DNA from: Pycnococcus provasolii
Lineage: Eukaryota; Chlorophyta; Pseudoscourfieldiophyceae; Pseudoscourfieldiales; Pycnococcaceae
Direction of reading: 5' to 3'
DNA length: 64,000 bases
NCBI GenBank assembly: GCA_938743325.2
Contig: OW568861.1
Span: 248,001-312,000 of the forward strand
Part shown: positions 60,065 through 64,000 of the stretch, one piece after another
Layout of the letters: every line of letters starts with the position of its first letter
How positions within the stretch are numbered: position 1 is the stretch's first letter
Notes under the pieces: generated by a model
The model's database searches: none
What the model saw: only the letters and a program-made list of their open reading frames with translations
What the model was told of the DNA's origin: nothing
Program-made: the position numbers and the translations under genes

Positions 60065-61552
60065 TCACGAGACGACGACGCCGTCGCCATCGCCGTCGGC
60101 GGCTTCAGACAAGTTCGACTCCTGCCCGGGCGGCGCCTCGGGCGCGTCGTACGTGTCAATCTCCGCGCGAATGCCCTGGTCCACCCACCGGCTCACGAGC
60201 CGATACGTCTCCTTCGCCTCACGCAGCTCGCGCTCAAGGCGACGCACCTGCACCAACGCACGCTTCTCCAGCTCCAGCGCGTTCGCGCCAGCCTCGAGCG
60301 CCGCCACAAACTCGTCGCGCTGAAACATGCGGCTTGAAAAGTTGCCCTTCACCAGGTCGGCTTGATTTGCCTTCGCCACAGCCTCGTCGCCGAATGATGA
60401 GGACGACTTCGCGCTCAGAAATGTCGAGTGGTCCTCGGGTGCCAGCCGCGTCGGCGAAGGTGCCGCTGCCTCCTGCGATTCCGCAGGCGGCTTCGACTCA
60501 CCGGGCTTGTAAGCTGGCCAGCCGCACAGAGAGCGCAGTGCGCGGTCAACGCCAGTCTCCAGGTAGCGCTCTCGATCGCTCATCTCGCGCTCGGCGTCGT
60601 ACAGAAGCCGGTCCATTTCGATAGCCGCGTCGCCAAAAAGAGCCATCGCCTCCGCGCGCTCCGCGTCGTCCACCTCCGGTTCCGTCTCCTTCGGCGTTTC
60701 CTTTGGTGCAGCCGCCGACGCTGCCGCATCGTCGTCCTCGTTATCTGCGTCTTCGTCGCTATCGTCATTCTTTGGCTTTGGCGGCGGCTTAGGTGGAGCG
60801 GGCCGCTGCACGGGCGGATGGATTTCGTCGTCGACGCCGTCGAGGAAGTCGCCTTCCAGAGTCGCGGCGCCGAGCCGCTTCTCCCACGCATCGCCAGCTT
60901 CGTCAAGCGCTGTGAGAGCGGTGGAGGCACGCTGCAGCGCTGCATAGCTTTGCGCAAAGATTGGGCGCCAGTCAGCCTGCTGGTGCACGCCACTTCCCGT
61001 CTCGCCGATGAACACGGTTGGCGAGTCCTGAACACCTCGTCTTGTCCCTCCATCCGTTCGGCTATGTGGCCGCGTGAGGAGGTCGCGAAGGTCCTCCACA
61101 ATTTCGAGCGTCGAGCTCGCGACGGCACCGAGTGGTGCATTGCTTTCGCGTGCTTCCGCCGCCGCGCCAGAGTTGTTGCCTGCATCCGCGCCGTTCACGG
61201 CGCCGCTTGCGCCGTTGCTGTCGACGCCCGGCTTCCTTCGCCTCGTTGAGTGTGACCGTTTCGACGTCGACGGTGGCACGGGCCTGTTCGTCGCAGGCGA
61301 CCTCGCAGGCTTCGAGGAGTGCGAGTGGCCATAGTCGCTCATGGACGACCTTCTCGGTGCGTTCTTTTTTGCCGCAGCGACGTTGGCAGCTCTCACGGGC
61401 TGGAGAAACTCCGCCTGGTAGTGTCTGAACGTGGTGTTGCCTCCCTCGTACCCCCCGGCCACGGGCGAGCTCAAGGAGGTCGTCTGTCCCTCTACTAGTG
61501 GCGTGATGAAGACGCGCTGGTAGACGGGTGGGAGGCGCACGTTGGACGCCAT
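60065..61552 (-). CDS. Unknown, mostly disordered protein with C-terminal coiled coil
   Basis: The 495-residue protein starts MASNVRLPPVYQRVFITPL. It has a basic Ser/Arg/Pro-rich region (60-115), an acidic stretch (DDSDEDADNEDDD near 270) and a C-terminal coiled coil (about 420-465, ALELEKRALVQVRRLEREL) ending in SRWVDQGIRAEIDTYD. No enzymatic motif is visible and I do not recognise the family. A 305-bp MITE lies 42 bases upstream of its start codon. Confidence 0.7.
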   Translation of the reverse strand: MASNVRLPPVYQRVFITPLVEGQTTSLSSPVAGGYEGGNTTFRHYQAEFLQPVRAANVAAAKKNAPRRSSMSDYGHSHSSKPARSPATNRPVPPSTSKRSHSTRRRKPGVDSNGASGAVNGADAGNNSGAAAEARESNAPLGAVASSTLEIVEDLRDLLTRPHSRTDGGTRRGVQDSPTVFIGETGSGVHQQADWRPIFAQSYAALQRASTALTALDEAGDAWEKRLGAATLEGDFLDGVDDEIHPPVQRPAPPKPPPKPKNDDSDEDADNEDDDAAASAAAPKETPKETEPEVDDAERAEAMALFGDAAIEMDRLLYDAEREMSDRERYLETGVDRALRSLCGWPAYKPGESKPPAESQEAAAPSPTRLAPEDHSTFLSAKSSSSFGDEAVAKANQADLVKGNFSSRMFQRDEFVAALEAGANALELEKRALVQVRRLERELREAKETYRLVSRWVDQGIRAEIDTYDAPEAPPGQESNLSEAADGDGDGVVVS

Positions 61553-61594
61553 GATAAGAGAGCACCGCCGATAGAGTTGTGCAGAGGCGCAGGC

Positions 61595-61899
61595 ACCTGA
61601 GGAGCCCCCTGGTCATAGTGAATGTGCAACTCTGTCATAGTGAAAACAACCTGGGTTTAGGTCGGGGGCCTAACTTAGACAATGAAATAGGTTCCATGAC
61701 GAATCCCGATTAGTCGGTATCCCAGGTCGAGTGGTGTTGGCTGGTTATAAACCTACCCAACTAGCTTCGGGACGGGTGCCCTAACCTTTGGGCAGTCACA
61801 CGGCTTTGGGCAGTCAATCGACTTTGCCCCGACCTAAACCCAGGTTGTTTTCACTATGACAGAGTTGCACATTCACTATGACCAGGGGGCTCCTCAGGT
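61595..61899. mobile_element. MITE with 73-bp terminal inverted repeats and 9-bp target duplication (Mutator-like)
   Basis: The left arm (61595-61667, beginning ACCTGAGGAGCCCCCTGG) and the right arm (61827-61899, ending CCAGGGGGCTCCTCAGGT) are perfect reverse complements over 73 bases. GGCGCAGGC directly flanks both ends (61586-61594 and 61900-61908) and is a perfect 9-bp target-site duplication. The 159-bp centre has no coding capacity and contains a direct repeat, ctttgggcagtca, twice. The 9-bp duplication with long arms points to the Mutator/MULE superfamily, moved by a transposase elsewhere. Identical arms and an intact duplication mean a recent insertion. Confidence 0.93.
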
Positions 61900-61908
61900 G
61901 GCGCAGGC

Positions 61909-62253
61909 CAGTGATGGGGATGAGGAGAACGCTCGGTGATGGCCGCCTAAGCTCTTCCCGAGACCTGTGAGAGCACTTGACCGGCCTCATGAGCCGACTG
62001 ATGAGGTTGCGTTCAGGCGACGCAACGTGCATGTTAGCATGGAAAGGTAAAGTTTACATACAGTACAGTTCCAAGGCTCTCATGAATGACATCACGGCTC
62101 TCACGCCTTACCTTGGATAGGTCTCGCCAAGTGTCCAGAAGGAACCTCCATCCAGTTCCAGCTGTCGCCCGCCCACACTCCCACAGCCGACAGGTGGTGG
62201 GGGGGGCCGACAGGTGTGTGTGTACTTTACTTTACTTTTTTTCATGCAAGATA
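61909..62253. promoter_or_regulatory. 5' flank of the Rossmann-domain gene
   Basis: This 345-bp stretch holds GTAAAGTTTAC at 62047-62057 and TACAGTAC at 62059-62066, back to back, about 190-200 bases before the ATG at 62254. A short tttactttactttttt run lies just upstream of the gene. Confidence 0.45.
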
Positions 62254-64000
62254 ATGTCCGCGCAGCACAATCATGACGGCGCACCTTACCACGTACATGC
62301 AAGACCTCCCTTGCACGACCCAACGCCCGTGCGACGACTAGACAGCCTGTTCGGAGCTCTGCCTGTATCGCCATCAGGGGGGTCGCCGGCCGTGGCATGG
62401 GCGGCCACCGGGGCAAACAACGACGTCGGCGTGGGGGGCCGATACAACACCAACATGGGCCAGAACACGGCGAACAAGGCGATGATGGCAACGACGAACG
62501 CGAACGTCAACTCCACGCCTATGAGCGTATCGCCGGCGTTCCGGGGCGCGCTCGCGACGCAGCCGTCAACAGCAAGAAGGAAGGCCAATAGCCAAACTTA
62601 CGCCAACAGGGCGACGGGAACGCCGCGAACCGCTGAGTCTGCGATGATGATGGTGGTCGACACAGACGACTTGGCGGCTGATGGCGTGGGAACGCCCCCA
62701 GCCGTCGCACTCGTGGGTGCAACCTCAAGACTCGCGCAGGCGTGCGCCGCGAGATGGCTTGCCACTGGCACACCAGTGACCGTGTACGACGCGAGCAGCA
62801 AGCACGTTGTCGATGAACTGGGACGAGTAGGCGCGCTCAAGGCGAGGAGCCCAAGGCACGCCGTCGAGCTCGCGACCAGCCCGACGTCGCGTGCAAACTC
62901 CGTCGCAAGGTCGCCCGTGGTGGTTATATTCGGAAACTCACCCGCTGACCTACTCACGACAGCTGAGGCGGTGTGCGCGGGACCCTACTACGCATCTCCC
63001 GCGCCAAGCTCCTTCACGCACTCCGGCACCGCGGTGGCGCTCTCGACGGATCGCAGACTATTACACGGTGGGGCTGTGCTGACATTCCTGCCACGGCCAG
63101 TGCAAGGCGCACGCGTGGCACAGTCCGATGCTTCCACTCTACGCAAGGTGGCGCAGCTCTTTGCGAAGCGTGGGGCGGTTCACATCCACGCGCTCGCCGC
63201 GGGAGGTGCCCTAGCCGCAGCCGCGGGGGCGCTGTGGCTCTTCCTTGCGGGAGGGGGCGGTGATTTGCCGTCGCAGCTTGCCGCGTGCATACAGCCACTG
63301 TGCAGTGGCATGACCATGGTGGGGGAGGATCCAGCCGCGGCGCTGAACGCCAGGCAGATGCTCGTAGAGCATCCCGCGGGCGTGCACGCGCACATCAGCC
63401 GCACCGAGGAGACTGCGATGCGTCGTGCCCTTGCCTCGCCAGCCGCGACGGCTGCATCCGCGCCTGGCGAAGGCGGCTCGGCTTCGGCAAACAAGGTGGC
63501 ATTCGCGACGGCGGAGTCGGTTCTCGTTGATGCGATTGCGGCAGCACTACAGAAACGTTCTTTTGTCTGGCACGGCTCGGCCCAGACATATGCCGAGCAT
63601 CGCTTCCAGAGACTTCGCGTACGGCTAAGGGAGCTCGGCGAGCAGAAGGATGCGGTTGTGGATGAAAATAAAGCCCTGCGTGCTAGAGTTGAGCAATTGG
63701 AATCTTCAGCCACCCAGGGAATTGCTGATAGTGCTTTGGCGTCATCACATGGCGTAGCCCAAGTCACCGAACGTTACCAGTCTCGCCTGAATGAACAGGC
63801 TCACGCCTACGAGCAGCAGCTTGCTAGCCTGAGGGAGCAACTTAAGCAGAACCAGAGCGCTTTGGTACTTGCATCTCCCGCATCATCCGCCGTACAGCGC
63901 AAGCTTGCAGATAGCGCACTGATGGCAGGCTCCGCCATTGACAATGCAATAATCATGCGCCAGCATGCCAGCAGTGCTGAGGAGCGCCACCTGATGACGT
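62254..64000 (+). CDS. Rossmann-fold (6PGDH/beta-HAD-like) domain fused to coiled coil, 3' end beyond window
   Basis: The frame is open from the ATG at 62254 (MSAQHNHDGA) to the right edge, 582 codons, so the gene is partial. Residues 1-145 are disordered. Residues 150-205 (VALVGATSRLAQACAARWLA, VTVYDASSKHVVDELGRVGA, ARSPRHAVELA) align in order with the NAD-binding start of beta-hydroxyacid dehydrogenases, including the VTVYD strand and SP turn, but the GxGxMG loop is replaced by GATSRLA. GGAVLTFLPRPVQGAR and the downstream LFAKRGAVHIHALAAGGALA resemble the following part of that family. From about 455 it turns into coiled coil. A degenerate, non-enzymatic domain in a structural or scaffold protein is inferred. 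Confidence 0.6.
   Translation, partial: MSAQHNHDGAPYHVHARPPLHDPTPVRRLDSLFGALPVSPSGGSPAVAWAATGANNDVGVGGRYNTNMGQNTANKAMMATTNANVNSTPMSVSPAFRGALATQPSTARRKANSQTYANRATGTPRTAESAMMMVVDTDDLAADGVGTPPAVALVGATSRLAQACAARWLATGTPVTVYDASSKHVVDELGRVGALKARSPRHAVELATSPTSRANSVARSPVVVIFGNSPADLLTTAEAVCAGPYYASPAPSSFTHSGTAVALSTDRRLLHGGAVLTFLPRPVQGARVAQSDASTLRKVAQLFAKRGAVHIHALAAGGALAAAAGALWLFLAGGGGDLPSQLAACIQPLCSGMTMVGEDPAAALNARQMLVEHPAGVHAHISRTEETAMRRALASPAATAASAPGEGGSASANKVAFATAESVLVDAIAAALQKRSFVWHGSAQTYAEHRFQRLRVRLRELGEQKDAVVDENKALRARVEQLESSATQGIADSALASSHGVAQVTERYQSRLNEQAHAYEQQLASLREQLKQNQSALVLASPASSAVQRKLADSALMAGSAIDNAIIMRQHASSAEERHLMT

Follow-up and report, generated by a model that had tools for sequence, protein, structure and literature searches.

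MITEs with MULE ends are already well known, and the combination of a shared interior with differing terminal inverted repeats (TIRs) and with arrays, double TIRs, and satellites derived from MITEs all have precedents in other organisms. The closest precedent that we found for the element described here is that of the CMITEs of Acropora corals, several families of piggyBac-type MITEs in which different TIRs enclose a conserved internal region of ~75 bp, which also occur in tandem arrays and whose mobility is documented by an element-free allele (PMC2872659; here and below, comparisons with published systems refer to excerpts of the papers cited). CMITEs have TIRs of 13 to 14 bp and TTAA target sites, whereas the elements of the alga Pycnococcus provasolii have arms of ~50 to 130 bp and target duplications of 9 to 11 bp and are assigned to Mutator rather than piggyBac (PMC2872659). 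In addition, the arrays in the alga are repeats of an internal core and lie mostly near contig ends, which is unlike what is described for the coral elements (PMC2872659).

Other described systems share single features with this locus. Plant MULEs with multiple or tandem TIRs (PMC3310237) likewise have two inverted repeats, one inside the other, and 9- to 11-bp duplications, and slippage, recombination, and nested insertion or acquisition have been discussed as their origins. In these plant elements, TIRs on the same side are similar to each other, whereas families in the alga have the inner repeat in common and differ completely in their outer arms (PMC3310237). The Tm1 Mutator/Foldback elements of root-knot nematodes (PMC3169594) also have composite TIRs and mostly 9-bp duplications, and their members include MITE-like, motif-carrying (histone hairpin), and transposase-coding forms. 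Tm1 TIRs contain variable numbers of 13- to 15-bp repeats behind common end motifs, while in the alga the arms are wholly different from one core-carrying family to another (PMC3169594). Pack-MULEs and Pack-TIRs (PMC8277862), for which template switching is the proposed mechanism, are comparable to a 2.17-kb relative of our element on contig C32 that has a reverse-transcriptase fragment between MULE-like ends, but unlike Pack-MULEs, the 305-bp element itself shows no coding frame. Finally, MITE-derived satellite DNA, such as that of Xenopus (PMC9659126), likewise consists of arrays related to a MITE interior; in contrast to these satellites, the core in the alga is also common to MITE families with unrelated ends. 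We found no description of such elements from Pycnococcus or from prasinophytes among the open-licence papers listed in our literature searches. The main text of the P. provasolii genome note (PMC11130579), which reports that 36 of 44 chromosomes are telomere-capped at both ends, contains no words starting with "repeat" or "transpos."

Structure and copies of the window element

The window, the whole stretch of 64,000 nucleotides that was analyzed, lies on chromosome 1 (contig C1) of P. provasolii CCAP190/2 in assembly ucPycProv1.2, a genome of 46 contigs and 32.3 Mb. A topoisomerase ORF in the window is 99% identical, over 94% of its length, to one assigned to Pseudoscourfieldia marina. Positions 61595 to 61899 of the window are a complete 305-bp element with two inverted, perfectly complementary 73-bp arms, the left at 61595 to 61667 (plus strand) and the right, a perfect inverted copy of the left, at 61827 to 61899 (minus strand). 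An inverted-repeat scan gives 74 bp rather than 73 bp, because one base of each flank pairs by accident. The element is flanked by a perfect 9-bp target duplication, GGCGCAGGC, with its left copy at 61586 to 61594 and its right copy at 61900 to 61908. The longest stop-free frame within the element is 38 codons, and its center looks noncoding. All of this agrees with the original prediction, which had described identical 73-bp arms, a perfect 9-bp duplication, and a noncoding center, and had placed them at 61586 to 61908, exactly the span of the element with both duplications. Being short, apparently noncoding, and bounded by TIRs, the element has the features of a MITE.

The left arm contains a subterminal direct repeat, TCATAGTGAA, at 61613 to 61622 and 61635 to 61644 (plus strand, 22-bp offset), and mirror copies of it, TTCACTATGA, are found in the right arm at 61850 to 61881 (minus strand). 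These repeats are possible transposase binding sites. Duplicated subterminal motifs occur in several of the arm types described below, with an offset of 31 bp in families C, D, and G and of 22 bp in family A (the family of the window element), and they are plausible candidates for transposase sites. A 19-bp inverted repeat, ACCTGGGTTTAGGTCGGGG/CCCCGACCTAAACCCAGGT, bounds an inner cassette at 61649 to 61845. Within the cassette, a left filler (61668 to 61709, plus strand) is matched solely by family A copies among the places scored, one of these being a truncated copy on C14. A 96-bp core (61730 to 61825, plus strand) is, based on a genome search and cross-family comparison, common to other element families. 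The core contains iterated 18- to 21-bp units, including two tandem 18-bp units (CTTTGGGCAGTCAC...) that are 83% identical at 61786 to 61821 (plus strand). We considered the core as a structured RNA and rejected this, since the three sequences folded are unremarkable (z = -0.63, -1.20, and -0.75). At gathering thresholds, the window has no match to any Rfam family. Neither the arm nor the core has an exact copy in the viral contigs of the virus collections, and exact copies of the arm are absent from the genome contigs of the prokaryote collections, both of which are weak evidence.

A genome search with the element, in which the best 40 of 57 candidates were scored so that the family A copy number is a lower bound, yields at least 92 matches and at least nine full-length family A copies, of which eight are 305 bp long and the ninth is 313 bp. 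The 9-bp duplication is different in all nine copies and perfect in eight; in the remaining copy (L005), the two sides agree at no more than the first seven of the nine bases. Elements L007 and L008 have the same sequence but different target duplications. Pairwise divergence among the nine copies is 0 to 3.9%, and they have 0 to 9 differences from the family majority (8 in the window copy; the 9 in copy L009 include an 8-bp insertion, located in an arm). Variable positions make up 2 of 146 in the arms (a count that leaves out the L009 insertion) versus 16 of 159 in the interior (p = 0.0011), which is the pattern that would arise if mobility were restricted to copies whose ends are intact. When up to 3 mismatches are allowed, the first 28 arm bases are found 23 times in the 32.3 Mb, and a reversed-pattern control occurs 0 times. 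These 23 arm ends are 18 from the nine copies, 2 from the C32 relative, and 1 each from C37, C41, and C42.

To find empty sites, the joined flanks of the nine copies were compared with the genome, and the best 40 of 50 candidates were scored. Related loci without the insert are present for at least three of the nine copies: L007 (95% on C43 and 89% on C15), L006 (96% on C42, where the left flank is just 30 bp), and L009 (about 80% on both C29 and C27). All five of these sites were inspected, and at each the target is present once; at both L009 sites it differs by one mismatch. The other six copies, including the window copy, have no junction-crossing match among the matches listed. Based on the multiple copies of uniform length, their all-different duplications, and the insert-free related sites of three of the nine, we conclude that family A is a family of mobile MITEs and that the window element belongs to it. 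The original prediction had named further copies with different duplications as the test for a family, which the genome search bears out, and had also claimed recent activity. As evidence of youth, identical arms by themselves are poor, since the arms hardly vary throughout the family.

Single family A arms are also present. At C37:6726 and C41:7532 (L033 and L032), a single arm lies ~7 kb from the start of each contig, with closely similar flanks and in opposite orientation; these two loci probably stem from duplication of one subtelomeric segment. On C42, a single arm is 100% identical to the left arm of the window element over 69 bp. The single-armed copies on C42 and C14 look like truncations rather than intermediates.

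Family A ends and MULE transposases

The 9-bp duplication of family A is within the 9- to 11-bp range given for MULEs (PMC3310237). Its 73-bp arms are long TIRs, yet they are shorter than the 100 to 500 bp that is typical of MULE TIRs (PMC3310237). A larger element with nearly the same ends is the C32 relative (L031:3644-5814), which is 2,171 bp long and has perfect 62-bp arms and the target duplication AACCAGGAA. The outer 53 bp of the left arm of the window element (61595 to 61647) match both ends of this relative at 98%, and the same segment matches the single arms on C37 and C41 at 98%. In addition to the reverse-transcriptase fragment, the C32 relative contains a 252-codon open reading frame (ORF). 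A Pfam search with this ORF gives no match, but it is 40% identical to the C terminus of an 804-codon ORF on C40, whose weak MULE domain match (E value, 9.8e-4; 19.9 bits) is below the cutoff of 27.6 bits. The presence of this fragment suggests that family A ends once traveled with what is apparently a divergent MULE transposase. The original prediction had proposed looking for a MULE transposase flanked by the same arms. What the C32 ends enclose is the 252-codon fragment, and an intact transposase bracketed by family A ends is not found at any of the 23 arm ends in the 32.3-Mb genome; the ends other than the C32 pair belong to 305-bp copies or stand single. We therefore infer the Mutator assignment of family A from its arms, the length of its duplication, and the C32 fragment, itself lacking a Pfam family.

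Pieces of the C32 element also match C13, C18, and several other places. Stop-free frames of 805 to 867 codons that are related to the C32 fragment are located at L051 (C40), C18:649062, C14:292643, and C23:372883; in the Pfam MULE search, the C40 frame is below the cutoff and the C18, C14, and C23 frames are unlisted.

One of the other families that contain the core, family G, has apparently intact MULEs with the same ends. Four elements of ~3.03 kb, on C6, C8, C13, and C18, are bounded by the outer ~53 bp of the G arm, and each of these has a 765-codon stop-free frame with a MULE domain above the curated cutoff. In the three of these four whose ends were examined, the termini are identical (GAGAAATGG...) and the 10-bp target duplications are CTCGCCCACC, CACCTTGCCT, and GGTGCCTGAT. 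The partners of family G, which are known from their stop-free frames, are thus MULE transposases between the same ends, and the four ~3-kb MULEs are apparently intact. Since the G ends bracket MULEs, a core-carrying MITE uses MULE ends, which by analogy supports the Mutator nature of family A. We also considered whether the core is a part of autonomous MULEs, and no listed core match lies inside the four G-type MULEs. Directly inside the terminal repeats of the G-type MULEs (L057 to L062) is CCTAACCCTA, in the three of the four that were examined. Three pairs of G arms (C39:143930-144582, C17:80876-82595, and C14:726098-726765) and one pair of F arms (C8:321730-322430), spaced 0.65 to 1.72 kb apart, have no listed core match; they are probably other nonautonomous elements with other centers.

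The shared core and a possible origin of the proposed composite structure

A genome search with the core (61730 to 61825; best 40 of 50 candidates scored, so that all counts are lower bounds) yields at least 106 matches, which are split into single copies and arrays. The core is present in at least five inverted-arm families besides A (C, D, E, F, and G being counted), and their outer arms are unrelated. Family C has 113-bp arms and five copies with both arms, of which one has an informative target duplication and four have duplications that are runs or near-runs of C or G and are uninformative. Family D has 130-bp arms and the duplication TTGATTTTA, with a second copy that is 84% symmetric and lacks a duplication. 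The arms of family E are 74 bp (duplication GTAAAAATAG), and those of family F are 124 bp (duplication GCGTGGGGC, about 8 bp outside the arms). The MITEs of family G have arms of about 97 bp, and one of the two has the duplication CCTCGCGGCC while the other is without an adjacent one. A further group, H (L043:3708-4721, which is C8:121708-122721), consists of perfect 395-bp palindromic arms with one core copy each, and no target duplication is found at the ends examined. Core copies on C20, C28, and C30 have no arms within about 700 bp.

Compared with family A copy L004, the core is 99% identical in F, 90% in C, 89% in G, and 82% in D over 133 to 138 bp, 95% identical in H over 81 bp, and 91% identical in E over 70 bp. 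In contrast, cross-family comparison of the outer arms gives no match better than an E value of 0.02. In each of families A, C, D, E, F, and G, the two arms of one copy are about 91 to 100% complementary. The interior is therefore more conserved than the TIRs between families, which is the organization seen in CMITEs. The inverted repeat that bounds the cassette (18 to 19 bp) is also present in families C and F, with differing outer arms.

At least 10 of the 46 contigs have the core within 10 kb of an end (C2, C8, C15, C22, C27, C29, C32, C33, C37, and C43), with arrays on nine of them and one match on C2. The similarity of the array units to the window core (84 to 94%) is confined to its first 45 to 73 bp, and the remainder matches less well. 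The repeats near contig ends are spaced about 147 to 155 bp apart (e.g., L036, L037, L038, L033, and L048), and an internal array on C3 (L035) has a 135-bp unit. The arms of family C (L049:4608-4720 and L041) contain telomere-type CCCTAA units, four of them in L049.

We consider it very probable that the window element is a nonautonomous, Mutator-type composite MITE, consisting of MULE arms around an exchangeable inner cassette and moved in trans. A MULE transposase acting in trans would recognize the outer arms and duplicate 9 bp of target at insertion. The outer ~53 bp of the arms would derive from one MULE lineage, and the cassette would be an exchangeable passenger that also travels with at least five further families of inverted-arm elements and occurs in the arrays near chromosome ends. 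The arms of family A presumably belong to a MULE whose lineage A transposase appears to be missing from this assembly or present only in damaged form; any present-day movement would depend on a related MULE.

Such an element could have been built in two steps. A foreign arm would join one side of an already symmetric cassette, and this arm would then be copied to the opposite side in inverted orientation by snap-back template switching at the inner repeat. We are less sure of this route to symmetric arms than of the MULE origin of the arms themselves. In families A, C, and F, the switch between outer arms falls at one common boundary, the inner repeat, and the 9-bp segments flanking the cassette are inverted rather than direct repeats. 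This argues against nested insertion of one MITE into another, which we reject as the simple explanation. Families D and G have another inner inverted pair in common and different outer arms. For the inner symmetry of family D, snap-back was the explanation that we initially favored. We later gave it less weight, since a G-like precursor that underwent a deletion between CGACCT repeats is explanation enough; family D thus cannot be counted separately in favor of template switching. Of the 16 variable sites in the family A cassette, we used 11, dropping columns 143 to 147 (trimming of the copy with the insertion). At 7 of the 11 sites, both states are also present in other families, and at four pairs of sites all four combinations occur within family A. 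Although few sites are involved, this suggests exchange between cassette copies.

A bolder form of this proposal is that the cassette is the unit that persists, that MULE ends are replaceable, and that new families arise from one foreign arm copied by snap-back. We offer it tentatively and regard it as rather unlikely. If it is true, one cassette sequence can pass between transposases and be seeded into chromosome ends. How MITEs originate and acquire symmetric ends is an open question, and a genome in which several families have a cassette in common but differ in their ends, and in which one family has autonomous partners that are apparently intact, makes arm replacement directly accessible to study. 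Within the literature searched, this would be the second case, after the coral CMITEs (PMC2872659), in which the interior of a MITE outlives the ends around it, and it concerns a different transposon superfamily and a different kingdom. It also links mini-transposons with subtelomeric repeats in a prasinophyte.

Alternatively, separate MULE families could each have taken the core from a subtelomeric repeat in the manner of Pack-MULEs and amplified it, in which case the core is a passive passenger. We regard this as a serious possibility, though a somewhat unlikely one. It is consistent with the core matches near the ends of at least 10 of 46 contigs, nine of them with arrays, and with the known ability of MULEs to acquire host sequence (PMC3310237 and PMC8277862, in the excerpts cited). 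It is also consistent with the lack of additional constraint on the core within family A, where 7 of 93 core positions versus 9 of 66 other interior positions are variable (p = 0.28). However, families A, C, and F have in common not only the core but also the 18- to 19-bp inverted boundary, the sequences of A and F agree at 99% over 136 bp, and the array units match the window core less well beyond its first part.

That all of these families are a single MITE lineage, with arms that diverged by mutation and a core under selection, e.g., as a transposition enhancer or a site for a host protein, is improbable. In its favor, no part is better conserved between families than the core, which has iterated 18- to 21-bp units, and the authors of the coral study speculate on a role in transposition for the same pattern in CMITEs (PMC2872659). 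Against this, the outer arms have no residual similarity while the cores are 82 to 99% identical, and drift cannot produce arm pairs that are still about 91 to 100% complementary in six families. Selection on the core is likewise unsupported within family A, given the absence of excess constraint noted above. The last alternative, a chance or structural palindrome that is no transposon, has no point in its favor and can be dismissed, since the nine full copies exclude the single-copy palindrome that the original prediction had raised against itself, their duplications differ, three of the nine have insert-free sites, and the arm pattern is found 23 times versus 0 for the control.

Neighboring genes

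The MITE lies next to a 495-codon ORF (60065 to 61552, minus strand) that matches no Pfam family. The 42 bases at 61553 to 61594 separate the ATG of this ORF from the element, which is the distance originally given. Among the predicted proteins, the 495-codon protein has 99%- and 46%-identical homologues of similar length. The alignment with the less similar of these (46%) starts at the first residues of the 495-codon protein, and 12 additional residues follow the first two, which makes this start credible. With this start, the element is likely to have inserted into the 5' leader or promoter of the 495-codon gene, where, as originally suggested, it might supply regulatory sequence. When the element is removed and its flanks are joined, the 495-codon frame is open for 78 bases past the insertion point, and the gene may therefore have had an older start farther upstream.

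On the other side, the right-hand neighboring ORF has in-frame ATGs at 62086 and 62254. The original estimate of about 350 bases to the next gene fits the ATG at 62254, the one at 62086 being a further in-frame candidate. One predicted protein, P0123 (432 residues, from a 1,777-bp record), is perhaps a chimeric assembly, since it combines a phage SU10 adaptor domain with a segment that is 99% identical to the N-terminal third of the product of the 495-codon ORF.
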